NCBI RefSeq assembly: GCF_905475395.1
Contig: NC_058338.1
Span: forward strand, 5,160,935-5,224,934
DNA from: Chrysoperla carnea
Taxonomy: Eukaryota > Arthropoda > Insecta > Neuroptera > Chrysopidae
Direction: 5' to 3'
DNA length: 64,000 nt
How positions within the stretch are numbered: the first letter of the stretch is position 1; every line of letters begins with the position of its first letter. This document shows positions 9,279-60,711 of the stretch, in pieces. Below the pieces are notes generated by a model, which was given only the letters and a program-made list of their open reading frames with translations, searched no databases and had not been told where the DNA came from. The translations under genes were made by a program, and so were the position numbers.

Positions 9279-12200
9279 TCAGGAAGCAATTGTGTTAAGT
9301 GTAATACTTTCTGTTTGTTTTGAGGATCGTTTCTTAAATAATACATGTTCGAAAATATAAAATACTACAAAAATACATGCAATTGCGATATGGTATCCAC
9401 CATACGTCAAAAATTGATTATGTGGTCCAAAAGCCAGACCATTATCGGAGACAACAATCTGTATTAAAAATACTTGAAATATTAATGCAAAAAATGTATT
9501 TATACCAAATATTAAGGCATAACTATCTTCAGGTATATCCGATGCGACAATAAAATTGGCGACTGTGATCATAACATGATACAAGGCCCCAAATATGATA
9601 TACCCTAAATACGAAACCCAAATACTGTCAGTTAATGCTGATGTAATTAATCCACAGCCGCCAATTGTCGAACATACGGCCAATATAATTTCACCATATT
9701 TATCCCAATCGATTTTAACCATTCCAGCTACCACAGATCCAAGTGCACCAATTATGGTTAGAATAGCTGTAACACCTGCGTTGTACATGTTTTTCTCAAT
9801 ATTTTCTGTACCCTCTTCCGTTTCGGGAGATAATGTTAACCATAACGGTTGTATGTAACTTTCCACTTGTAGAAAACCGCATGTTGCCATTGCCCACCAT
9901 AAAGACCATTTTATGATTTTTAAGTTGGTATACGCTGTTTTTGTATGATCCCAAAGTAGTGAGAATGCAAGCTTACTTTTCTTTTTGATACTTAAGTTAC
10001 TTGTTTCAGGTGAGTTGAAGTATAAACTTTTGGATACTGATGGTAATAAAACCCAAGACCAAAATGTGGCGCATATCATTGCTGTAAAATATACATGACT
10101 TATGATTTTTAAACATTTTCAAAATAAGTGGACTTAACAAATATACCACAAGAGCACTAAACATTACAAAAAGTTAACTGTATGCGCCCTTAGACAGGTT
10201 GGATTATAGTGGCTGCCATGGGATGGGACACACTTAGACCACAGTCCGTTGTCCGGCCACTACTCCATGAACCAATTGGGTGTTGTTTAGGAACAACAGA
10301 AGTGTTTTGATGTCAACGAAGTTAAGATCGGAGAGGTCGTCAAAGAAAGACTGACTCAAGCGAGTCCATCTCCTCATGGCAAGAGTATAGACAGTGACAG
10401 AGAATATGAAACATCTTTTCTTCCCCCTTCCCACTGTGACAGTTCCTGCAATAGTCGTGATACACTGTCAGGCCCAGTATCTTGTAATAGCCGCAAAAAT
10501 TTTGCTTATAGAGGCCCTTTAAAGCGAGACAAGATTTTCGGAACGCCTGCGATTGTACTCAGACCATGTCTGTCTTGTAGTGTCACAAGACAAGGAGGCA
10601 CTCAACATCACTTTAATAACTTTGGACTTAAGTAAAAACTTAGGTAATAGTAAAAGAATATTTTCTCTAACCTGAAAAACTTAAATAATTTAATTGCATG
10701 ATGTTTAAAATATGAAAATAAATAAAACATTGTGCAACCACAGCGGATGTAAATCGACCAGATAAAATAGCGATTCTCGTACATGATGTAACAAATTGAT
10801 AATGTTCTTTTGGTACTTTTGCATAAATATATGTATAATATGCAACTTCAGCTGCCATAAAAAATCCATAAATAACCTGTAGACAAAATAAAAATATATT
10901 ATTTTATTATTATCCATAAATTATTGATATGGAAATCATTAATTATAATTAATTTGCTAATTAACATAGTATATATTAATTTAATTATTATAAACAATCT
11001 ATTATGGAATTTTTTTTCTTATAACAAATATAAGTTTTCATTTTTATAGACTTCGTGCTAGGAAGAAAGTAGTGCTAACTTATTAAGTAGTTGTTATCAC
11101 CTCTAGATCGCAATAGTTCTAAAATTTTCTCGAAAACTACGAGTTTTTTGAATATAGTTCATTCGATCATTAATAACTCTTTTTAATATGTTAAGAAATA
11201 TCCCAACTCTCATTTTTACCTCTTGAACGAAGGTGAAAATTGAAAAACCTTAATTTTTGAGTAATTAAGATCATTTTTGTTTTTGCCCAGAAGCGTAAAA
11301 GTTCTGTGTTTTTTTATAGAGATTGTTTGGCGTTCACACCAAATTCTTAACGAGTGAATGAGTTGAAGTTTTTAGCCCTTTCGTTCAACAATGGGACACT
11401 ATTTTCGGGAAAATTAGAAAAGGCTCATTGTTATCCCTAAATGCTGAAAAGTAAATAATAAATTTTTCTGGATTGCTTCAAGATTGGTTACTTATAGTCA
11501 ACAAAATATTCGCAAGGTCACGCTGTACGCAATTTCGATAATTAATAGGTGAATGCAAATTCTATCACATACACGGGAATTATAAAAAAGCAATAGCTCC
11601 ATGAGCCATGACTAGGAAATTCGCTAAAAAAAAATCGCATGGTTGTATGATCATGCGTTTAGGAAGCAAATGATAATCAAGTTAAGCGCACGCGTATTTT
11701 AACACAAATATTAATTTTTTTATCTAAAAAAAAAAACAGTTGCATGGTATTTGTCATGGAGGCTATAAAAAAGGAGAACGATCGCTATAGAAAATATTGT
11801 CCTCAAAATATGGACAAAATAAGTGAGGCGCTGGGATCGCTAAGTTGTCTCATTAAAAGCGGGCTGTTGTGCGCTAATTTCAAATGATCTATCAACGTTT
11901 AATATACGTTCATATAATATCATTCAAAGGAAAAAAAAAGCAAATAATGAAATTATTATTAATTATTATTATTATTTACTAATGAATAAATTATAAATTA
12001 TCTATTCTACTTTATAAATTTATATCTATACTACTTTATAAATTTGAATGGCACTAACTTCATCTACTTGTACTCATAAACAGCTAACTTCGCAGATACT
12101 ACTTACCGACGACAGCGCGGCTGGTGGCTGAAAAATGAACTATAAATTCTACAAATTTTCAGGGATCGTTCTCCTTGTCTATAACCTCCATGGTATTTGT

Positions 12201-12820: not shown

Positions 12821-12985
12821 ATGATTTGTGTTCACTGTCAAAAAGTTTCAATTCAATCGAAAGAAGAGTGTTTTAGTTGTTTTAAGAAATCAATCGATGA
12901 CGCACGTCTGCTTAAGTCAAATTGTAAACAGAGCTCGGATATGTGCGAATTTATAAAACTTATTACATATAATTATTATTTTTAA
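12821..12985 (+). CDS. Possible 54-aa ORF with paired CxxC knuckles
   Basis: This plus-strand frame starts MICVHCQKVSIQSKEECFSC, giving C-x2-C-x10-C-x2-C, the spacing of a small zinc-binding fold. It begins 179 bp from the SLC19A ATG on the opposite strand, so a shared divergent promoter is possible. No family is recognised and the C-terminal end is AT-rich and unconvincing. It could be a first exon, but no clear GT donor is seen. It may be a chance ORF. Confidence 0.25.
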   Translation: MICVHCQKVSIQSKEECFSCFKKSIDDARLLKSNCKQSSDMCEFIKLITYNYYF

Positions 12986-13080
12986 TTAGTTTGTATCTAA
13001 ATATTTTTATTGCCAACGTTAAATAATCCTGTCTACCATAGATGTCTATACATAGTCTAAATCGCTAACCTCATGTTTGC

Positions 13081-13945
13081 GATGTCAGTTTTTCGCTAGC
13101 TATCACTAATGTGCTTAATTCCGGGACCAGGTCTCCACATTCTTGAAACCTATTAGAGCTAGGTTCATTTTGATCACAAATTTGAAAAGTATGATCCAAA
13201 TTTAGTAGGATTACATACTTGGTTTATCAAAATTGGATAAAATTTGAATGTGATAGAGCAAAATTAAAATTTTTGGATTCTGATGACGTCATAAAGTTAA
13301 AAAATTCGATTTTTTTGATAAAACAGGCAAATTTGATCCGATCTTATTGGAATTTTTTTTTGAAACCCACTAATTTTGGGACATTCTTTTCAGCTGCGAT
13401 GTCAGTTTTTCGCTAGCTATTACTTATATGTTTAATTCCGGGACCAGGTCTCCACATTCTTGAAACCTATTAGAGCTAGGTTAATTTTGATCACAAATAT
13501 GAAAAGTATGACCCAAATTTAGTAGGATTACATACTTTGTTTGTCAAAATTGGATAAAATTTGGATGTGATAGAGCAAAATTAAATTTTTTGGATTCTGA
13601 TGACGTCATAAAGTTAAAAAATTCAATTTTTTTTTGATAAAACAAGCAAATTCGATCCGATCTTATTGGAATTTTTTTTGAAACCCACTAATTTTGGGAC
13701 ATTCTTTTCAGCTGCGATGTCAGTTTTTCGCTAGCTATCACTTATATGCTTAATTCCGGTACCAGGTCTCCACATTCTTGAAACCTATTGGGGCTAGGTT
13801 AATTTTGATCACAAATATGAAAATTATGACCCAAATTTAGTAGGATTACATACTTGGTTTATCAAAATTGGATAAAATTTGAATGTGAAAGAGCAAAATT
13901 AAATTTTTTCGATTCCGATGACGTCATAAAGTTCAAAAATTTGTA
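13081..13945 (+). repeat. Tandem array, about 317-bp unit, about 2.7 copies
   Basis: Units begin with GATGTCAGTTTTTCGCTAGC at 13081, 13398 and 13716, so the period is 317-318 bp. Copies are very similar, differing by scattered substitutions. Each contains GATGACGTCATAAAGTT and ACCCACTAATTTTGGGA-type blocks. The same unit recurs at 22577-23050. It is a satellite-like or transposon-derived tandem repeat. Confidence 0.9.
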
Positions 13946-15472
13946 GGTATAAAAAACTATGTTAATTACTTAATAACAGACAATATAAAAATTAATGTAT
14001 AAACAAATATTTAATTAGCTATTTATCGTAATTATCTGAAGTAAACCTTTTTTTTAATTACTATTTCAATTGTCGTTATTGATTGCAGATTGATACATTA
14101 TTTTCCAACGTTTTTAAATAAAAACTATCTTATCTGTTGCTAATTGCTTTAATATTTAAATTAAATCATATTAAGGATATTAAGGACCACTTTTATTAGA
14201 TTCTATCAGTTTTTGAGTTTATATGAATGAATTTTATAAAGTACACAAAACATTAATGAAGTATTTTATGATAGTAATCTTTGAAATCGAAAAAATAAAG
14301 GAATAAACCACTTTTACAAATTTTTTATGACACTATTGGGAAAATTAATTAGAATTTTATTAAAGAACAGGAGCAGAAACCTTTGCTAAAACTAAAATTT
14401 TGTTATATAAAATGAATAATAGAAAAAGCAAGGATGATTTCTTCCTCCCATTTTACAGTACCGCCCAATGCCAAAACCTTCATATAAATTTCCTTATTAA
14501 GGCTAATCAAATAGAATCCATAAACAAACCGTTTTGTGGAATTAATTTCCAGCAAGCTGGAAATCGTTTTAATTTACACGCATTTGGTCCTAAATGCGTG
14601 TAATCCGAGTTAGTCCAATCCCAGGAGGTGTGCAAAAATTTTGGGAGCAAATTAGATGCAAAATTTGAGGTAGGCTTTCAATTTTTTACAAATTACAAAA
14701 AGAAACTATTCCTTATAAAAAACTAAACAACTTTTGTTTGAAACATTTTTTCGTTAATATCGCTGTTTACCCGTGAGAACTAGAAGAAACCATAAAAGGA
14801 CTTCAATTTTTAGGAATTCATGGACTTTTCAGCATTACGATGAAAATATTGCTCACGCATGCTATTTCCTCAGTCAAGCGAAAAAAGAGATAAATTTAGA
14901 GAGAAAAATTTTGCTTAAATGTTTACATGAAAATCACAGTACAGTATTGAAAGAACAAAACTGTATGCTAGAAAAAGTTTAAACTAAGCGTTTGCCTTCA
15001 AGATGTACAGACTAAATTAGTGTACCCCAATAAAATAATATCATATCATGGCCATTGTAAGTCAACAGCATTTTTAAATACGATCCACGATAAAATTAAT
15101 CTCATAGATCTCTAAAACGTTATTTCCTTTATGCAAAACCTTGAAATTTATCAGCATTATTTAAGTCTCTATTGCTAATTGTATTCATAGGTAAAATAAA
15201 AGGTTTCATCATTTTCCACTTTATCCTTCCCCTAAAAACAGTCGAAATAATCAGAAGTGGTATTAATCTTAATAATCGCAATCACTTTTTGATGTTAAAT
15301 ATAACTGACAATCTTATACATCGAAAATCATATGCTCCAGCTGGACTAAAGTTTGAGAAAATTTCGCCTGTGCGAGTATCCTGCTTCATTTCTTTTTGCA
15401 TCCAGCTATCATAGTCTCTTGTTTATAGTCGAGATATTAGAAATGCGATTATTTATAGTTAATTTATTTAAT
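13946..15472. other. Intergenic stretch with a dispersed-repeat copy
   Basis: AT-rich, without a supported gene. Around 14690-14790 is a reverse-strand stretch (caaacaacttttgtttgaaa, cgctgtttacccgtgag) matching the repeat at 25045-25460. The open frames at 14400-14603, 14773-14982 and 15172-15414 have no similarity I recognise. Confidence 0.45.
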
Positions 15473-15498: not shown

Positions 15499-19531
<4,033 letters not shown>

Positions 19532-20927: not shown

Positions 20928-22576
20928 GTAGAGTAAAGAACGTGATCAGAAATCTGGTGATCAATATAGTCTGGTGATACATTCAGATTAAATAATAAAT
21001 TTAATATAACGTTAATAAATCAACCTATTAAGGCGTGATAATATGACACCAGATTATAAGAGGTCGACACCATCAACTTCACATATTGTTGATAATTTTT
21101 TATTATTATTATCATTTGATATTTTCACATAAAAATACTTTGTTTATTGTTATTATTTTGGCGTTTTTTGATAATGTATATGCCAACCACCGCGACCGAT
21201 GCAGATTGTGAATCATATATATATATATTTTGATATTGATATTTATTATTGTTTTATTAATTTTAATAATGTTATTGTTATTTTTGAAATAGACATTCAT
21301 TGTTTGAATATTAATCAAAATGATAACAAGGATATAATAATTCATAGAGACCACAAGTTAAATTGATAGCAAAAAAAATGAACGATTGAAAACAAAAATT
21401 CAGGATAAAAAAAACAACAACTTTAGTTCTATTTTTATAAAAAATGAACTTCCGATCTAAATTAATTATTTCCGGTAGGAACCAACAGTTGAGAATATAT
21501 TATCATTCGTCCGAGATAAGAAGTTTAATCTCTTTTCCTATGTTTTTTACTTTTGTTATAAATAATCCCTATTCCAGTTTTTGAACGAATGATCCCGATA
21601 AAAAGGATGTGATATTAGAAGGCCGATAACTTAAAAACGAAAAGAGATATCAAATTGATTTTGGAACTTGGGCAAAAAAAAAAGCGTAGTTTTTTACAAT
21701 TCTTCCATGCTAACTCTCATCAATTCCCTTAAAACTTTTTCTTTATTTACTCACAAATATGAAGGTGTTTTTTTACTTGAGCCCCAATGTATTGATTTAT
21801 TTACCTTGTAAATGATTTAATGAGGACCTAACCTAACAAACACCCACGATAAAATTTGATTGTATTATTAATATTTAAACATGTTTTTTTTTTTAACATT
21901 AGATTAATTGTTTGATCCAATTTAATTTCTTTCAGAATTATTGAATTATTTTTTAAATTATGTTGAGCAACAGCTACAGATATACAAAATATTGTACGTT
22001 TTATGGATGTTACAATCTACACGACCCTATTTTTGGATTTTGGGTAGTACCAAATTCGATTTTAGCATTGGGTTTAAGTTACATTCTATTAGTTAAAACA
22101 ATTAAAGTTTATTAAAAATCAATTTCATTCACCAGCTGAATAAACTGACACCTGCAATAACTAATTGTCCCATAATTATGACTAAACAGGACATAAACGT
22201 TAATTATAAGTTAGTACGTGATTAACATGTAACAATAGTGTTGTTACTACCATACCTGAATCAGGAACTATTATCTAATTAATGCATATAATTAAAAATA
22301 AAATCAAAATACTACATAATAAATATAAACTTGACCTAAAAATCATTTACAACTACTCTTAACTAAACTACACCAATTAAAAGTCATCTTAAAACATAAA
22401 AAAGTCAGGCAAAGAAATACAATTCATGTCTAGGTCTTGTTATACTAAACTAAACACCGCCCTAGTATAAAATTCAATTTTTTTTACACCTAATTAGTTT
22501 AGGAGTTGACATGCATTTTTAAGGAAAAATCATGGGCGTCGATAAAGAGGGCAGATATTAGCAGATGCCCCATAAC
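20928..22576. other. AT-rich intergenic stretch, nothing recognised
   Basis: Low-complexity AT sequence with (AT)n near 21217-21231 and short frames only. No bounded element or gene. Confidence 0.5.
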
Positions 22577-23050
22577 ATTTGGATGTGATTGAGCAAAATT
22601 AAATTTTTTGGATTTTAATGACGTCATAAAGTTAAAAAATTCGTTTTTTTTTTATAACATAAGCAAATTTGATCCGATTATATTGGAATTTTTTTTGAAA
22701 CCCACTAATTTTGGGTCATTCTTTTCCGCTGTGATATCAGTTTTTCGTTATCTATCGCTGATGAGTTTATTTCCGGGACAAGGAATCCAATTTCTGGAAA
22801 CCTATTAGAGCTACGTTAATTTTAATCACAAATTTGAAAAGTATGACTCAAATTTAGTAGGATTACATACTTGGTTTATCAAAATTGGATAAAATTTGGA
22901 TGTGATAGAGCAAAATTAAATTTTTTGGATTCTGATGACGTCATTAAGTTAAAAAAATTCGATTTTTTGATAACACAAGGAAATTTGATCCGGTCTTATT
23001 GGTATTTTTTTTGAAAACCCCTAATTTTGGGTCATTCTTTTCAGCTGTGA
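22577..23050 (+). repeat. Second locus of the 317-bp tandem repeat, about 1.5 copies
   Basis: Contains two diverged copies of the 'ggatgtgat.gagcaaaatt' to 'acccactaattttggg' block seen at 13081-13945, about 320 bp apart and in the same orientation. More diverged than the first array. Confidence 0.8.
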
Positions 23051-23539
23051 TGATTAACTTTATGACGCCAACTAACAGGCGGTCAAAATTTTTACATAAA
23101 AATGCATGTCAGCTCCTTAACTAATAATCGTACCGATCGATTAAACAATTAATATCAAGATTACTGCTGAAGGCTAGTATTTAACATCTTCAAGGTCACA
23201 TTGAGACTTTATGAGATTTGAATCATTCACTGTTCACTATTTAGAAATGCATAACCCAATTTACAATTCATATGAAAAAAAAAACTATAATTTTGATAAA
23301 ATTGTTTTATTGATATTAAAAAAAAAAAAATTAATGTACAATAAAAACCATAAAATGTTTTTTAATTTAAATGTATTTAATATTTGAAATATTTATGATT
23401 TTATATATTTATTGGAGAGGTTTTTGGATCAATTATTTATTTATGTGGAGTGCATACGTAATAATAAACCAATTAATCATATTTAATATTTCTATGTATT
23501 TAAGAGCCACAGATGTCTGATAAGTACCTTTTATTGTTT

Positions 23540-24305
23540 GGTAATGGAAAAGACCTCGCACAAATTAAATGTAATCTACATTTTAGTCAAACCTTTTCAA
23601 ATTTTGGCAAATGATAGTTTAAGTCATCCTATAGAAAAGTTCCCATGGTCACAAGTCATGAAAATGACAGGATTTCATGTTATAGCTAAATTAAAGTTGG
23701 AAAATGTACTTATTTGCATAGTATATTCCTATGTGTGTATAGGCAAATACATATACAGATATGTATAACTACATGCATACGTGTGTTTTTTAATGCTGCA
23801 TTTTGGTCAAACCTTTTCAAAATTTGGCAAATGATAGTTTAAGTTTTTCTAAAGTAAAGTTTCCATGGTCACAAGTCATGAAAATGATAGGATTTCATGT
23901 TGTAGCTAAATTAAAGTTGGAAAATGTACTCATTTGCATAATATATTCCTATGTGTGTATAGGCAAATACATATACAGATATGTAAAACTACATGCATAC
24001 GTGTGTTTTTTAATGCCAGAGTGTTGTTTTTTAATTCTTGTTTTTTTGAAGAATATGTTACGAAATTCGAAGAAGAAGCAGTGTTAAATGTTCAGTGGAT
24101 CAATAATATGAATTCCAGCGTTAAGATCAATATTCTATACATACGTTCATGATTTTTGACAATTAAATTACCTTAATTTAGTGATAACTTGAAATCCTGT
24201 CATTTTCATGACTTGCGACCATGGGAACTTTTATTCAGAATGACTTAAACTATCATTTCCCAAAATTTGAAAAAGTTTTACCGAGGTCCTTTCGTTTGAT
24301 ACCTT
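23540..24305. mobile_element. TIR element with an internal 220-bp tandem duplication
   Basis: Left arm 23584-23690 and right arm 24183-24290 are inverted copies (gatagtttaagtcat, agttcccatggtc, catgaaaatgacaggatttc). The left arm plus about 110 bp is repeated in tandem (units from about 23586 and 23806, period 220 bp). The frames read across it are by-products of the duplication. Confidence 0.75.
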
Positions 24306-28622: not shown

Positions 28623-46004
<17,382 letters not shown>

Positions 46005-51000: not shown

Positions 51001-53759
51001 ATTCCTTGTAAGGCAAATATTAATTCTTGCATGAGTTCATATTCTGTTGCGTCTGGAATAAAAATAATTTTGTTGAGTGCTTATTTCTAAAGTAATTAAA
51101 TTTCGAATTAATACTCACATAAATTATGATTATAATGATAATTTTTAAAATTATCTTTCTTGAATTCAGTGCTGCTAGCGCTGCCACTGTCTGTGCGTTT
51201 AACACAACAAAGTTGGTTACGACTATTTACGCCTAAAGATTCCTAAAATGACAATTACTAGGTTAATACACTTAAATTTGGAGAAGGAAAAGTGCCGTTA
51301 TTTTGAGAAAAACCATTTTGTATTTCAAAATAATTGTTTAAACAATAAAATTCTAATAATAGGAATATTCATGAATAATTTGGTTCAAATATTTTTCTAC
51401 CGTAACTTTAATGACTGGACATTTCAACTAAACCATTATTTTAGTAATTAATATATTTTTAATTACTTAAAATTAATTAATAAAAGTACAAATTCAGTGA
51501 GCGCATTTAAAATTTCAAAAACGGAAATTCAAATTTGTATACGGACGTGACATCATAGTACGGGCTTGTCAAATTTGTTGACATACTGTATGATATTAAT
51601 TACTTACATTTTATATGGTATTTCATTAAATTATATTATTCTACGGTTTTTTATTAGAAAACTTAATAATAACGAGTGTAAATTCTATGTTGTAAATTCA
51701 TTTTTTTAAAGTGTAAATTATACATTGAACTGTCACCAATTGACAGATCACGTACGTATACGTCATCAACAAAGAGCGCCAAAAAACTGCGTTTAAATAT
51801 CTCAAAATTATAATGTATTTTAAATATTTTTTTATACTTAAATGCAGCATTTTTAAACAGTATTTATATTTTTTTACTTTGTTATAACGGTGTAAACAAT
51901 GAATTAAAAATATATGAATATTCCCTATTGTTTATACTCCAGTAAACGAGGCCTAAACCTCTAAATTTTCTTCTACAGCTCCGATTTACCTGATCTAGAT
52001 CTAGATCAATAGTTTTATGAGAAAAAAATTATTATAATTACCACATTTGATGATTTTCGAGAATCAAGTGAACAATACGATGATTTCATTTCAAGTGGAA
52101 AGATTTTCTCCAAATTACAATGTAAATCCAGTTTTCTATGTTGATCCAATTTTGATTTTGTATTAATTGTATGTAGCTCCCCCATCGTATATTTTGCTTC
52201 GATATTATCAACTGCATTCACTTCTGTCGATTGTGCGTACAAAAATCGTAAAATCGCTGTACGATCTTTAACGATCGTCTATAAATATAACAAATAAAAA
52301 CATTTTACATTCAAAGAATAAATAGTGCCCAAAAAAAAAACCCTAACAATATTTCAAAAAGTGTACAAACAACTTTTATTTGAAACTTTTCTTACCAATT
52401 TATCCAATTTGGTGAGTAATGTATGAAAATTGATACCATCATCGGGCGTATTAAGTAATTCAATTTGTTTCTGTACTTTATCAATAATCATAAGCTCATT
52501 TGGTATAACATATGGCACTGTTGATACAGAGAGACCTTCTAACATTAATTTGGCAGCGGTCCGTTGGATATAATCTTTATGTTCTATAAAAAACAGACAG
52601 AGATATTATAAAATACCAGAAACAAGTACAATTTTAAAAACCTCCGATAAATTTTTCAGGTACGGAACGCTATACTTGCCTTTGAAACATATCTAATAAA
52701 ACTCTCCATTAAATTGCCTTTTTCCTTGAAGCCTTTTGCAAAGTGAGCCGATTTGGAAGATCATCGATAATTTTTAGTTTTTTTGGTACAGAACCCTAAA
52801 TTTGCACTTGAAACATAGCTTAGAACATTCTCCATTAAATTATTCTAAAGATGTGGTTTTTTAACTCTCGAACCAAAAAAAATGGGTGTTTGGCCACTAT
52901 GTCTGTCTGGCTGTGCCATCGTAGCGCCTAAACGAATGACCCGATTTTTTTGTTTCGTTTAAAAGGTAATTTAAAGGGAAGTGTTCTTAGCTATGTTTTA
53001 ATTGCAATTTTAGGGTTCCGTACCTGGAACAACTAAAAAATAGGCGACGATCCTCAAAATCGGTTCAGTTTGGAGAAGGCTCAAAGGAAAAAGATAATTT
53101 AATGGACAGTGTTCTTAGATACGTTTCAAGTGTGAGTTTAGGATTCCGTACCCAAAAATTTCTCGGGGGTTTTTAAATTTTCAAAGTTGTCGATATTTAT
53201 TATGTCAAGGGTAGGAATTCATACTACTAACGAGACATTTTTGTTCGCCTTTTTGGATAGAAAATAAATTTTCGTAAAAAAACTATATACAGGGTAGGAC
53301 ATTTTAATCTATTATGGCTCTAGGGATATCTGTGTTAAAATAGTCGATTATTTTGTGGATTGTCAACAAATTAATAATTTATAAAATAACTTTCCTTTGG
53401 AAAAATTACACTTTCGACAGAATTTTCTAAAACTATTAACGAAGTAAACAGCGTTTCTTTTTGTATGCTTATTCAGAAGTAAACGTAATTCAGTAATTGG
53501 TAAAGGAATGTAGAAATAATCATTTTCAGCCTACACAAAATAAAATTAAACTATACTTAATGTGAAAAAATTGACCATTTATAAATTATGGAAAGGACCA
53601 CTTCACCAAAAACAAATCCTAAATTTCGAAGTTGAAAAACCACTAAAAAGATGTTATACTAAATTTAGAGGTGTGTTTAAAATTACCTGGACAATCTTTA
53701 GTAAATACACTACAAATTTTCTCAAGAATTACTGAAATTATTTCAACTCCACCATCCAT
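48009..53759 (-). CDS. TUBGCP3: Gamma-tubulin complex component 3 (GCP3/Grip91)
   Basis: Core subunit, with GCP2 and gamma-tubulin, of the gamma-tubulin small complex that nucleates microtubules at centrosomes. Eleven exons: 53759-53687, 52583-52396, 52278-52042, 51242-51119, 51052-50642, 50423-50201, 50136-49988, 49930-49744, 49265-49130, 49067-48645 and 48425-48009. All phases agree; 855 aa, close to the vertebrate length. Family landmarks in order: LSLRRLLVWILEP, DPCAEFFIEARPDITGDRLW, REAMIPSFITREQAEKIL, GKSIDFLREVC, SYLLLGQGDFIRHLMEML, GWDVFSLIYHTNGPIGTIF, FEVLECNWEEL and LLSFRLDFNGHYKRLS. The N-terminal 160 residues are weakly conserved, as usual. For exon 8 I chose the acceptor TTTTTAG at 49931, because the nearer-looking TTTCTAG breaks the frame. 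Introns hold a LINE piece and foldback elements. Confidence 0.95.
48464..48620 (+). repeat. Dispersed foldback-family copy in a GCP3 intron
   Basis: Carries 'ggtctatagagaccatacta', 'gtctcatattgttg', 'cacaaacttggataattcct' and 'cagaactacagaat' in the order seen at 1371-2870. It lies in the last GCP3 intron (48426-48644). Confidence 0.7.
49380..49640 (-). mobile_element. LINE RNase H fragment in a GCP3 intron
   Basis: On the minus strand the sequence reads FYTDGSKLEKKVDCGIFSED, then LRLSFRLP, AEVMAIHEVCE and ITIFTDSQAALKS. This is the RNase H domain of an I/LOA/R1-group LINE ORF2. It is interrupted by stops, so a dead fragment. It may belong to the family whose 3' end is at 55575-56120. Confidence 0.8.
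52634..53176. mobile_element. Foldback element in GCP3 intron 1
   Basis: The left end aaaaacctccgataaatttt and right end aaatttctcgggggttttt are inverted. Further inward, paired blocks such as 'ggtacagaaccctaaatttg' and 'caattttagggttccgtacc' continue the palindrome. Non-coding; superfamily not determined. Confidence 0.65.
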
Positions 53760-53909
53760 TTTAATATTGTATTGTTTTTTTAACTATTTTCAAAACATTA
53801 AATTTATATAAGAATTCAAAATTTTATAATGGGTATAGAAACCCAAGTTGTATTTTTTCTATGGTAAAAACGTTAATTTCAATTTTTGACAGTTTTGATG
53901 TTTGTAGTA

Positions 53910-54864
53910 CGGAAGCCTGAATGGCTCACAATCAATTTCTAAGGAAGTGGCGCTACATTAGCTTATTTTTTTAATTTGTACTACCCACCTGTCCAATCGA
54001 ATATATAATCAAGTACCGAAGGCTTATTGAACGAAAGCTATTTTGGAATTCAACTCCGGCATCCATTACAACAAACGAACTTACAAATGTTTCAAAGTCA
54101 AAGTTCATACGAAACTAAAAAGGGTTGCGAAGATGAAGAAAATGGTTATCCTACCCAAAGTAGCAGTAATTCTCGGGAACAGCATGAATCAAGTGCAACT
54201 ACTAGTAGTTCTTCTGGCATGGAAAATGGAAGAAAAGTGGTTAAGAAACCATTACCAACAGTGGTTCAATGTTCTCAGAAGTACAACGTGGATATTGCCG
54301 GTGCTCCAGCTAAAGAACTATCAACAATTTTGGAAGACACATCTCGAAATGTTGAAACATTGGCTCAAAATTTACAAGCAACAAAAATAGATGATCAAGA
54401 AGAACATAAGACGTCATCGTCTTCAGAAACATCTGAGGAACAACATGTAAGTATCGATCCACAATCTGCTTCGTACTTAAACCAATTTCACTCAATACCC
54501 GATGTCTCACAAAGTAGTTCTTCTAAAGTTTTTATGGAATTAAGTAGTACTAATAATGTGTTGCAAAGTTTGGATTCGAAATTAGGTGTTTCTCAAATAA
54601 GCAATAATGCATCTTCATCGGATAGTTTAGATGAAGCGTTAAAACAATTGGGTTTGGGATGGGCGAACACCACCTTACGATAATCATCACCGACTAACAT
54701 CTTCAAAAAGGTTCGTTTCCATAATGCCACAAGTCCACTTGTTGAAAGTGGACTAGTGACTTTTTTAAAAGTCGGTTTCATACTTGTGGGTAGTACACAT
54801 TTAAAAAATAAGCTAATGTAGCTCCACTTTCTCATAAATTGATTGTGAGCCATTCAGGCTTCCG
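53910..54864. mobile_element. TIR transposon carrying a captured CEP295 fragment
   Basis: Terminal inverted repeats 53910-53988 and 54786-54864 (79 bp, about six mismatches) begin CGGAAGCCTGAATGGCTCAC. TA lies directly outside both ends. Between them are 686 bp copied from exon 3 of the CEP295 gene 5.6 kb downstream, plus about 100 bp of other sequence (54683-54785) with a small AGTCCACTT/AAGTGGACT hairpin. No transposase is present. The left end is about 150 bp upstream of the GCP3 start codon. Confidence 0.85.
53994..54679 (+). pseudogene. Captured copy of CEP295 exon 3 (686 bp)
   Basis: Aligns without gaps to 59560-60245 (constant offset 5566) with about 14 substitutions by eye, roughly 98% identity. 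One change makes an in-frame stop near the left edge (54006, CAA to TAA). After it the CEP295 frame stays open from TTG at 54027, with a first ATG at 54087, to TAA at 54681, just past the junction. Amino-acid changes relative to the parent are few (D to G, T to S, S to A, I to N). It lacks the CEP295 start and has no evident promoter. Confidence 0.9.
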
Positions 54865-55299
54865 TAGTTTGGAACTTCGATTCTTTTACACAAGTGACAT
54901 CTATATATTTTTGAATAAATCATTTTATGGAATTCCAAAATTTATGTTTTTTAAGAAAAAAATTCTTTGTTTTTTTAAGGTTATTTAATGTTTTTTTTTT
55001 TTTTACAAATAATTCATTATAAAAATATATTTAACGAAAACGTTTCACATTGAATATTTCATAAATAAATGTTCTAGCTCGTTAAAATTAAGTAAATCAT
55101 TATACAAAAATTTATTTTTGACGTTTATTAAACAGTAAAAACCGTTAGAATTTCAAAAAATAAAAGATGTAATCATAAATAATTTTACGGTAATTATTAT
55201 ACCATTATTTGTTTTAATTATAAACCATGTATTTATTAATTTTATCGTTTATTTTAAAATAGTTAATTCGAATTTTGCTCGAATTTTTGTTACTTAATT

Positions 55300-58200
55300 A
55301 TGTCAATTAATGTAACTGTTACTGGAAATCCAGTTGCTGTAAGACGGGGACAAATGTTTATGTCCGAAATCGATAATTTTAAGAAGAAAGAAACTTTACG
55401 ACGACGAAAAGCTAGATTAGAACAGGTAATTTATAATTTTAAGCTCAGTAAAAATTCAATTCAAAAATGATTTTCTTGAAGATATTTTGATTTTAATAAT
55501 TTTCTACGATTTACGAACTTAATCTCAATCGAATCACGCTTAGTATACACGTATACTTAACTTGTTATATATTAGATTTCTTAGACGTCCTTAAAAGAGC
55601 TGGTGCTTTTTTGCTGGACGAACTTGCCAGAAATGGCACAATGCTGTCGGACACAAGCATCAATAAATACCCGGGTACTACAAGACAGATATGGTATGAG
55701 TACAATCGCAGGCGTTCCGAAGTTCCCATATCACTTCCAAGGGCCTCTGTTCGCACAGTTGTTGCCGCTATCACAGGACACTGGCTGGGCGTCAAGCATG
55801 CTGAACGCTTAGGCCTGTCAGTGTATCAAGCATACTGCAGGAGCTGTCACAGTGGTGACGAGGAGGAGATAATGTCTCATATTCTCTGTCATTGCCCAGC
55901 TCTTGTCATGAGTAGATGGACTTACTTGAACCAGCCTCTCTTTGACGACCTCTCCGACCTAAAGTCAGTCGACGTCAAAGCCCTCCTGCTGTTCTTAAAC
56001 AGCTCCAAATGGTTCATGGAGTAATGGCCGGGGATAGGCCAACCCATTTACGGTATCACAACGGACCCTATGGTCTAAGTCTGTCCCACCCCAGGACAGC
56101 CACTCGAACCTAACCTAAGCTAGATTTCTTAATAAAATTTTGGATAATGTTAAATCCAGGTGCGACAGCAATCAAAGGATCTAGCATCGAATCTACGTGA
56201 AAAAAATAAAATTCATACATCAAATTTATTATCAAATTTGGAAAAACAACAAGCGCAGACAATACAAAAATTAACAGCGAAAAAGCTACTCAACTTACAT
56301 CAACAATACGACGAATGTTTAGGAAATATAGGCGAAGCTCATCGATTAGCAGCAGAGGAAGGATCACCTTCACGATATTTAGATAAAAAACGAAAACAAA
56401 ATTTTAAAAAATGTAACGAACGTGGTAAAAAAGCTTTAAAAAAGCTCCATGAAGATATACAATCGAACGAGGAGCTTACACAAAAATCAAAAAATCGGAA
56501 ATTATTAAATCGTAACATTGAAAATGTACGTTCTGGTATGATAACACAGTTAAATAAGTCTAAAACACCGGGTAAAAAGGCGAAGAAAAAGGATAAAAAG
56601 AAAAAACATCAAAAAATGAATGAAAGCGATTGTGAAAATCGTGAAAATTCATACCATGAAAATGTTAATATGGATACTTATCGTATCCCAGACAAAATTG
56701 ATTCTGAAGAAAACATTTTTTCTAGAATAGCAGCGGGTGACCATCTAAGTCAAACTGACTTGTCACGTCGTCGTATTTGTTCAGATCGTGTTGAATCTGT
56801 TAAACCCCTTGAATCTACTCGAGTCATTTCTGATCGTATTGAATCTTCTAGACCTTTTGAATCATCTCGACCTTATGAAACTTCTCGACCATTATCAACA
56901 AATCGCATCGAAGAAGACTACAATCGATTGGTTAAGTCATCAAGACCAAACTATGTTCCAGAGTCGAATGTAAGGATATCATCATTACCTGAACCTGACA
57001 CACGATTATCACAATTGATACAAAGTCGAAAACAACGGCAATCATCAAAATCAGCCACTGAAATGGAGTTTCAAGTTAATAATAACGAATATAACCCAAG
57101 TGATTATAAATCTACGAGTTTACCCACAAAAGATTATTCTTCCAAACCATCGCCACCTGGTAAGCTTCTATTAATTTAATATTTCCTCCTTTCCTCTGGA
57201 GTTTTTTCCTGGAACTAGAGACACATGCGTAAAGAGTGGTAAACTAGCCAGCTTGACCTGTCACATTCTTTATCGTAAAAAAGTGATTTTGTTGAGAAAC
57301 AGATTCATTTTTCTATTAGCGCGAAGTTTTTTCCTGGATCAAACTTGTTTTTTTGTTTTATTTCCACGATTAATTAAACATATGTCAGTTCTTTAATTTT
57401 TTTCGGTGTCATTTTTATAAAAATAATATTTTTTGTTCATAGTTTCGAGACCTGTAATTCCTACGCCATGTGAAAATCCTGAAGTTCCACTATTAGAAGT
57501 GACCGATGTAACAGACGAATCACTAAATACACAAAATACAATTACAAAACCACCAAAACCGGTGCAACTTTACGATCATAAAACTCGATTTACTCAACAA
57601 TACATTCCAAAATCTGATATAGTACGAAAAACATTCGCTGATAAGGGTGTTGTATTTCCTTCGGAAGAGGAAAAATTAGCTCTATGTCGATTAGAACGAC
57701 AGCGTCAATTTGAAGCTAAACGACGTGGTCGTGAAGCGTTGGAAAGAGAACGTATTAAACGTGATCACGATCAATTATTATCGGAATTAGCAAATATTCG
57801 AAAAGGGGAGCAAATTGTAAATACGTATACGAGAAATAAAGATGGCCATTTGTCCGAAGCTCGTTTACGAGATAAAAATACAAAGCATCAATTGAATATT
57901 GAAGCTGCATTTGAAAGTATTTATAAACCACCTGAAGCACAATTAATTACAACTGAACCTGTGCGGCAACCACCAACGAAGATAAAATTTATTAATTTAC
58001 CTGAATCACCGGAAGAAGTTAATGTAAATGTTGGGAAATGGGAAACAATTGGTCCAAGTACTAGTCGTCAACCTAAAGTAGATACAACAGTATGGGGAGA
58101 TTCAACGTCTCAAGTTGGTACCGATCGCCTAACTGGGGGAGAAACAGACACTCTACGTAATTTACTTGAACGAGTTTCTACGCAACGTAAATTATTAAGA

Positions 58201-60711
58201 AGAGAATTAGCTAATTTTCAAAGCTCAGCAACTGTACCTGAATCTAAAAGTGTAAGTGTGCAATCCGAAGAAACCAAAACTTCCAACAAACCAAAAAGAA
58301 AAATTATTAAAAAATCTAGTGAATCAATTCGTAGTTCCTTAAAAACAAAACCGACAGAAGTTTCTACGAAAGCAAAGAAAAGTGAAAGTCGTGAGTCCAC
58401 TAAAAGTCGTACATCAGGATCGGAACAGTCAACGCGAATTTCAAGTGAGCATTCAGATAAAAATGAAGAATCGAATCAAACTTTAGATAAAATACCAACG
58501 AAACAATCAACAGAAGAACTTATAGCGGAAAAAGAGAAAATAATTGATTTAAGAGCCGCTGCAGGAGGATCTGCAACCGCGCTACAAAATTTACCAAGTG
58601 AAATAAAAATTTTAGTACAAAAAGATTCTGAGAAACCTGTTAATATAAAATTACCCGATTCCAAAAATAATATGAAAACTGGTGACGATGTGGGAAGTGG
58701 AATTCAAATAATAATTAAATTAAATGATAATCAAAGTGCTCCAATTACGACGGACATCGAACAAATTACAAGTGGAACAAACACTCAAAGTGTTCCTACT
58801 AAAATTGCTGCTACTTCACCAGAAATTAAATGGGTTTCAGCTCTTGAGAAAAAACCTGAGATGAAAGAAAGTTCGACTAGCACCTCCTATTTTAGTCCAC
58901 CGGTTTTATTTTCAGTGGCCAGAGAGGATAAATTTCCATCAAATAAGAAAAAAATTGCTTCAAGGGAGAAAATTCCTGAACATCCAATACCTCCACAACC
59001 TAAAATTCGTACTACAGGATTTCGAACTTCAGATATTTCGACACCAAATCAAAAATTGGATGATAAAACGAAAGAGTTAATCCAAAAATTACTAACAATG
59101 TCCAGAGGTAGCATCGATCGATTGGAAGTAAGTTCAAGTGATGTATGTACCCCGGACTTAAAAGTTATACAAACTCGAGAGAATTTAGAAAATTTCCTTT
59201 CCGATGCCGATGAAACACTTCTAAATGAACTTTTCCAAATGACTGGAAACAGTTCAGAATTAAAAACTGAATCCGAACGAAGTAAATCATCCACCTTGGA
59301 ATCAATAGCATCCCCAGAACCATTACTTCAAGAAGGATATACTGAAGTGATGAAATTCTGTACGCAAAGAATTGGTAAATTAACAGAATTGATCGATCAA
59401 ATTCGAAAAGAACAGATTAATCCATTTTCATATAACCCAGAAACCACAGCTCAAACCTCATATTTACGACTTCCATCGTCCCCGGATCCTTCGACAAAAG
59501 AACAATCTGGAGAGAAACAAGTAAGTTCTTTTAAAGATATTCTAGGCGTGAAACCTGTGCAATCGAATATACAATCAAGTACCGAAGGCTTATTGAACGA
59601 AAGCTATTTTGGAATTCAACTCCGGCATCCATTACAACAAACGAACTTACAAATGTTTCAAAGTCAAAGTTCATATGAAACTAAAAAGGATTGTGAAGAT
59701 GAAGAAAATGGTTATCCTACCCAAAGTAGCAGTAATTCTCGCGAACAGCATGAATCAAGTGCAACTACTAGCAGTTCTTCTGGCATGGAAAATGGAAGAA
59801 AAGTGGTTAAGAAACCCTTACCAACAGTGGTTCAATGTTCTCAGAAGTACAACGTGGATATTGCCGGTGCTCCAGCTAAAGAACTATCAACAATTTTGGA
59901 AGACACATCTCGAAATGTTGAAACATTGGCGCAAAATTTACAAGCAACAAAAATTGATGATCAAGAAGAACATAAGACGTCATCATCTTCAGAAACATCT
60001 GAGGAACAACATGTAAGTATCGATCCACAATCTGCTTCGTACTTAAACCAATTTCACTCAATACCCGATGTCTCACAAAGTACTTCTTCTAAAGTTTTTA
60101 TGGAATTAAGTAGTACTAATAATGTGTTGCAAAGTTTGGATTCGAAATTAGGTGTTTCTCAAATAAGCAATAATTCATCTTCATCGGATAGTTTAGATGA
60201 AGCGTTAAAACAATTGGGTTTGGGATGGGCGATCACCACTTTACGTAAGACCCAACAAACAATGCAATTAAGTTCATCAAGTTCATCGAATTCATCGAAA
60301 AATGTAAGTAAACGTAAACCTAATTTATCTGATACGAACGTAAGCTTAAAAGATTTATTACGACAACAGCATAAACGGCAATTATTACAAACGACAATTG
60401 AATCGAGTTCAACATCAATTGAAAGTTTTGAAATTTCACCAACGATTAAAAAATTACTCGAATATTTACCATCAACATCAAAATTGCCAGAACAAATTCT
60501 AAAAGAATTCAATAAACCGGATGAACCTGGTGGTCGAACATCGACACCAGTGAATTTGAAACGAAATTCTGTACCTGATTTTATTATGAATCAATCGGAT
60601 GATATTTCGCTGATAAAAAAACCAAATAGTTTGGATAGTTTTTTGAGTTTAACAATGCCAGATTGCTCTTTGGATGTTAGTAAAACAATGCAACGAAGTG
60701 TTAGCAGTTGA
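55300..60711 (+). CDS. CEP295: CEP295/Ana1-like centriole protein
   Basis: CEP295 (Drosophila Ana1) acts in centriole elongation and centriole-to-centrosome conversion. Three exons: 55300-55425, 56160-57159 and 57443-60711, phases 0 and 1; 1464 aa. The N-terminus is the best-conserved part: a charged coiled-coil region leads to NLHQQYDECLGNIGEAHRLA (about residues 87-106), matching the GEGHRQA block of vertebrate CEP295. Then come Lys-rich stretches, a short degenerate SRPFESSRPYETSRP repeat, another basic coiled coil (LERQRQFEAKRRGREALERE), and a long Ser/Thr-rich low-complexity C-terminus. Exon 3 alone is 3.27 kb with an unbroken frame. It is transcribed divergently from GCP3, another centrosome gene. 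Intron 1 contains a LINE 3' end. Assignment rests on the N-terminal region. Confidence 0.85.
55575..56120 (+). mobile_element. LINE ORF2 3' end and UTR
   Basis: The frame 55611-56024 encodes the region after RNase H of a LINE ORF2: TVVAAITGHWLGVKHAERLG, then the Cys/His motif C-RSC-(x)-MSHILCHCPAL, ending FLNSSKWFME. The 3' UTR ends ccaggacagccactcgaacc. This is a 5'-truncated insertion in CEP295 intron 1. It is the longest of the related pieces in the window. Confidence 0.85.

Follow-up and report, generated by a model that had tools for sequence, protein, structure and literature searches.

At 53910-54864 of a 64-kb stretch of contig NC_058338.1 (positions 5,160,935 to 5,224,934, called here the window), the green lacewing Chrysoperla carnea carries a putative terminal inverted repeat (TIR) element enclosing a fragment of the neighbouring CEP295-like gene, LOC123294290. 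The element is Pack-TIR-like. Such events are already known in animals, and this one has modest added interest for lying in an insect reference genome; the view of the initial annotation that they are scarcely described in animals is outdated, as the survey of Tan et al. 2021, which covers 100 animal genomes, reports 370 Pack-TIRs from 55 species (PMC8277862). The best reading, to which we give a probability of about two in three, is that of a single-locus Pack-TIR formed by in situ gap filling, during which synthesis changed template to an exon close by. It is favoured because the TA-flanked 79-bp repeats enclose a gapless, sharp-ended copy whose source, equally oriented and at a distance of 5.6 kb, is unique in the window and has flanks unlike those of the element; the local capture proposed by the initial annotation finds its support in the same facts. 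The fragment was probably inserted during repair of a broken chromosome.

Anatomy of the element and its cargo

The two arms (Table 1) are 93% complementary over 81 nt when the TA is included (53908-53988 and 54786-54866, 6 mismatches), and 73 of their 79 positions are identical without it. The 20-nt end CGGAAGCCTGAATGGCTCAC, searched with up to 3 mismatches, has two occurrences in the 64 kb, one per arm, the mean of 100 shuffles being 0.00. A TA, the target duplication of Tc1/mariner elements, is present on both sides; it is palindromic, hence could count as repeat sequence, and short of an empty site it does not prove a duplication. These borders and the gapless cargo between them agree with the inverted repeats and the Pack-type architecture that had been annotated at first, and the element is a putative transposon, so called from its inverted repeats, its flanking TA and the way the cargo is placed. 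The repeats might instead belong to an unrelated palindrome in which a templated insertion or duplication landed, or result from an assembly artefact. They are known from one locus so far, as this would have it, but the 73/79 identity of the 79-bp arms, the TA at both borders, an end sequence beyond chance, and the long-read assembly make it very improbable. According to its genome report, C. carnea was assembled with hifiasm from 40-fold PacBio reads, with the alternate haplotype deposited (PMC10116181), and an artefact bounded by inverted repeats is for this reason unlikely.

Table 1. Features of the element and of its source gene (positions in the window)
Feature	Position	Strand	Remarks
Left TA, presumed target-site duplication	53908..53909	.	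...TTTGTAG TA, then CGGAAGCC
Left terminal inverted repeat, 79 bp	53910..53988	+	identical to right arm at 73/79
Captured fragment of CEP295-like terminal exon	53989..54679	+	source 59555-60245; core excluding first mismatch, 53994-54679
Non-gene sequence, 106 bp, strong hairpin; presumed parent-transposon remnant	54680..54785	+	
Right terminal inverted repeat, 79 bp	54786..54864	-	arm comparison, 73/79
Right TA, presumed target-site duplication	54865..54866	.	GGCTTCCG, then TA GTTTGG
Source gene, CEP295-like LOC123294290	55300..60711	+	exons ~55300-55425, 56160-57159, 57443-60711, ends set by eye to GT/AG
Source stretch in LOC123294290 terminal exon	59555..60245	+	~residues 1083-1310 of 1464

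The cargo had been described at first as a gapless 686-bp copy of CEP295 exon 3, about 98% identical, with about 14 differences of which about nine are silent, and these figures stand. At a constant offset of 5566, 53994-54679 corresponds to 59560-60245 over 686 gapless bp with 14 differences; extension to the left down to 53989 yields 691 bp with 15 differences (97.8%), the extra one being silent. In the source frame, nine of the 14 are silent, and the five others are, from source to copy, Q to stop (at 54006), D to G, T to S, S to A, and I to N. An ATG at 54087 opens a 198-codon frame without stop in the copy. Similarity to the source ceases immediately outside both ends, and the single match of the copy in the window is the source itself, which sits wholly within the uninterrupted terminal coding exon (57442-60708) and spans no intron. 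At the left junction (53987..53988, plus strand), 2 bp (AC) are common to the source and to the repeat, as judged by the continuation of the right arm.

The order within the element is left arm, gene copy, 106 bp present on the right side of the copy only, and right arm; the transposon sequence kept amounts to 79 bp before the copy and 185 bp after it, or 264 bp. The 106-bp sequence displays a hairpin with a 9-bp inner stem within an outer CCGACT/AGTCGG pairing. Folded as single-stranded DNA, it has a z of -4.2, with 0 of 200 shuffles equally stable. It might conceivably be a second captured piece, a proposal that was not retained: 12-nt matches to the rest of the window are at chance level only, and Pfam gives none. 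On the minus strand, a frame (54680-54853) starts from an ATG at 54853 inside the right repeat and runs through the 106-bp remnant into the cargo antisense, for 86 codons; its first 58 residues match no Pfam family.

Other origins of the copy have been examined. A retrocopy is not supported, given the TIR borders and the absence of a visible poly-A tail at the copy end; intron loss is uninformative here, as the cargo spans no intron. The element ends 435 bp upstream of the ATG of the source gene (55300), hence upstream of exon 1, which rules out an intron location or an exon duplication. A larger segmental duplication is ruled out by the flanks, between which no similarity was found. Gene conversion between copy and source was set aside, the longest identical run (113 bp) being ordinary (p 0.84) and the clustering of silent differences weak (p 0.09).

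Just upstream of the element, at 52652-53158, two interleaved inverted-repeat pairs are found (52654-52722/52961-53029 and 52779-52843/53094-53158), perhaps small transposons.

Order and ages of insertion and capture

From the anatomy, we infer the membership of the repeats in a mobile family, an order of events and a repair route. A non-autonomous DNA transposon with a TA target would have landed on the C. carnea chromosome upstream of LOC123294290. A double-strand break would later have arisen within it, at the hairpin or through excision, perhaps of one copy. The break would have been repaired by copying, synthesis changing template to the exon ~5 kb downstream, copying ~690 bp of it, and then returning to the element, of which the 79 bp and 185 bp mentioned above would be what remains. 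Gap filling is favoured also because published Pack-TIRs have the same cis bias and a short microhomology: as given in the survey, 59.8% of 281 unique Pack-TIRs are intrachromosomal and 160 lie within 15 kb of their parent, while 190 of the 281 possess microhomology at one breakpoint at least, with a median of 2 bp (PMC8277862).

That insertion came before capture is favoured because the arms differ more than the non-silent sites of the copy do. The arm divergence of 6/79 (0.038 per arm-site) exceeds that of the copy, with at most 5 non-silent changes in ~545 sites (0.009), at p 0.021 if the arms were identical at capture, and at 0.025 under other exposures; this age test, like those below, was picked post hoc and its p value is uncorrected for the number of tests. 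The comparison, which assumes identical arms at insertion, is suggestive of arms that perhaps diverged before capture.

Several points weigh against gap filling in an older transposon. The arms were possibly unlike from the moment of insertion, in which case the age comparison would lose its basis. An overlap of 2 bp or more at a junction has a chance of ~20%, and that of the left junction is therefore unremarkable and weak evidence. The left side keeps just 79 bp, which agrees less well with the survey's breakpoints, as these lean to the element interior with little of the element lost (median gap 4.6% of the element; PMC8277862). Finally, one scan each of viral and prokaryote contigs gave 0 exact matches to the TIR ends, a result of little weight since these are poor places for an insect element.

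Capture might also have been coupled to transposition, the fragment being gained in replication-fork switching or abortive excision repair before the loaded element hopped beside its source. Both TA borders are intact, in line with this, and DNA transposons are known to hop locally. The short distance and the same orientation, however, require no such extra step. The survey, which attributes its multicopy cases to transposition following fork switching, describes these cases as always distal from the parent (PMC8277862). When the cargo frame was compared with a protein database, moreover, 0 of 1720 candidates reached E <=0.001 and no second protein copy appeared, a weak test as only proteins of similar length were scored. 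Taken as a whole, coupled capture is unlikely.

The silent differences bear on the age of the copy. Random change in the copied stretch is expected to be silent in between 21% of cases, without transition bias, and 24%, under a twofold bias; nine of 14 is more than would arise if all changes had occurred freely in the copy (p 0.0005-0.0017). Equal copy and gene branches would predict ~14-17 non-silent changes in the copy, where at most 5 are observed. When unequal branches are allowed, the estimates are ~0.000-0.010 for the copy and ~0.045-0.069 for the gene; equality has a p of 0.005-0.022 without transition bias and of 0.014-0.057 with it, one setting missing 0.05. These values are suggestive of a copy younger than its silent divergence implies, and the cause of the inequality would be either an allele already diverged from the reference allele when captured, or constraint on the copy.

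The alignment that the initial annotation proposed, with a view to dating the capture and polarising the changes with an outgroup, yields the branch estimates above and a partial polarisation, but the relative used (P0003) is distant, being 37% identical across 73% of residues 1080-1464, and helps a little. P0003 is the same as the gene at S to A and nearer the gene at I to N, where it has V; it is the same as the copy at T to S, where the alignment is poor, and is gapped at D to G. With the stop included, three of the five non-silent changes look copy-derived, one is perhaps gene-derived and one is ambiguous. The polarised changes lean towards an unconstrained young copy, and the cargo appears to be decaying without function: it contains a stop in the frame of the source, and of the remaining four non-silent changes two look copy-derived against this distant relative.

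If the silent excess were instead due to constraint, the copy would be under selection, its transcript from upstream of the gene acting as a 5' leader, a short protein or an antisense regulator. The excess itself and the open 198-codon frame agree with this, as does the survey's description of Pack-TIRs often found in chimeric transcripts, with a worm case that forms an alternative 5' untranslated region (PMC8277862). Selection on the copy is nevertheless improbable: a source-frame stop lies at 54006, S to A and I to N adjoin residues common to the distant relative, the 1720 candidates of similar length gave no protein match, and changes on the functional gene's own branch explain the silent excess equally well.

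The other cause, a divergent allele, leads to a tentative reading, possible but doubtful, in which the element would be the fossil of a CEP295-like allele lost from the sequenced chromosome. A transposon of long standing at the site would recently have captured it in situ, the donor being a divergent haplotype. Such a capture would imply a silent divergence of 5-6% between alleles. The genome of a sister species is reported with 57.31% repeats, a large unclassified share (53.8%) and a highly homozygous k-mer profile (PMC11830793). If true, insertion, capture and allele divergence could each be dated independently from a single locus, and this in an insect order for which the literature searched yielded no Pack-TIR.

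Source gene and other repeats of the window

The frame 57448-60708 matches at 100% the "uncharacterized protein LOC123294290 [Chrysoperla carnea]" (P0001, 1464 aa). The window encodes this protein in full and without mismatch, as three blocks (55300-55428, 56163-57158, and 57442-60708), the true exon ends differing by a few bases. The name CEP295, given by the initial annotation, is presumed here from an N-terminal motif of the protein. A Pfam scan and a PDB search with the LOC123294290 protein returned no match; a precomputed PF28375.1 is recorded for it in the protein database. Two further protein searches, in which only the 7998 and 8000 candidates richest in common words were scored, returned 2 proteins each. 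Intron 1 of the source gene harbors at 55500-56122 a coding remnant that we take to be retrotransposon-like, Pfam giving nothing above cut-off, with inverted relatives at 10275-10581 and 17142-17353.

Elsewhere in the window, two satellite-like arrays of a 317-bp unit (12982-13953 and 22572-23052) lie ~9 kb apart, the compared pieces being 71-94% alike. At 23576-24282, a 220-bp sequence is present as two direct tandem copies (94%) and is joined by an inverted arm at 24170-24282, and a hAT transposase C-terminal dimerisation domain is found at 34331-35059 (Pfam PF05699, E 1.2e-12).

Comparison with known Pack-type elements

Pack-TIRs are defined in the survey by a 100-5000 bp segment lying between two ends of one TIR element, each of which should cover 10 bp or more of the termini of a consensus transposon, and by a unique best source that is at least 90% identical, with a length ratio of 80-120%; this source should be without transposon within 100 bp, and the segment should not be a multi-exon intronless retrocopy (PMC8277862). 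Here, the gene copy between the matching arms of the putative TIR element measures 691 bp and is 97.8% identical to its source over this length, without gaps. The source is a single coding exon, with no repeat found in its 100-bp flanks within the window, and is unique within these 64 kb. As in the animal Pack-TIRs described there, a TIR element is split by a single foreign segment more than 90% identical to a nearby source, with short microhomology and an exonic cargo, which figures among the reported cases (PMC8277862).

The element differs from them by having no family class, and by its host, a neuropteran: the survey reports no Pack-TIR in its bird and insect reference genomes, an absence that may, as it proposes for insects, come from a low TIR content (PMC8277862). 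In one literature collection of 5.39 million papers, searched partly through titles and abstract openings, the term "Pack-TIR" occurs in PMC8277862 alone and no lacewing case was found. A clear lacewing case would show that Pack-TIRs form in insects as well, and that the choice of insects in the survey set may account for their published absence. The order of insertion and capture is directly testable at this locus, with the source next door, three clocks, and a deposited alternate haplotype.

Two other systems come close. The Ssk-FB4 family, present in fly populations as the survey mentions, is likewise an insect TIR element with host gene sequence; it is multicopy and MULE-like, with 9-10 bp target duplications and ~700-bp repeats, whereas the lacewing element has a 2-bp TA, 79-bp repeats and one known copy (PMC8277862). 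The plant Pack-MULEs and Pack-TYPE elements also harbor a gene fragment between terminal inverted repeats (PMC8277862, PMC8903248); unlike them, the lacewing element has its source 5.6 kb away.
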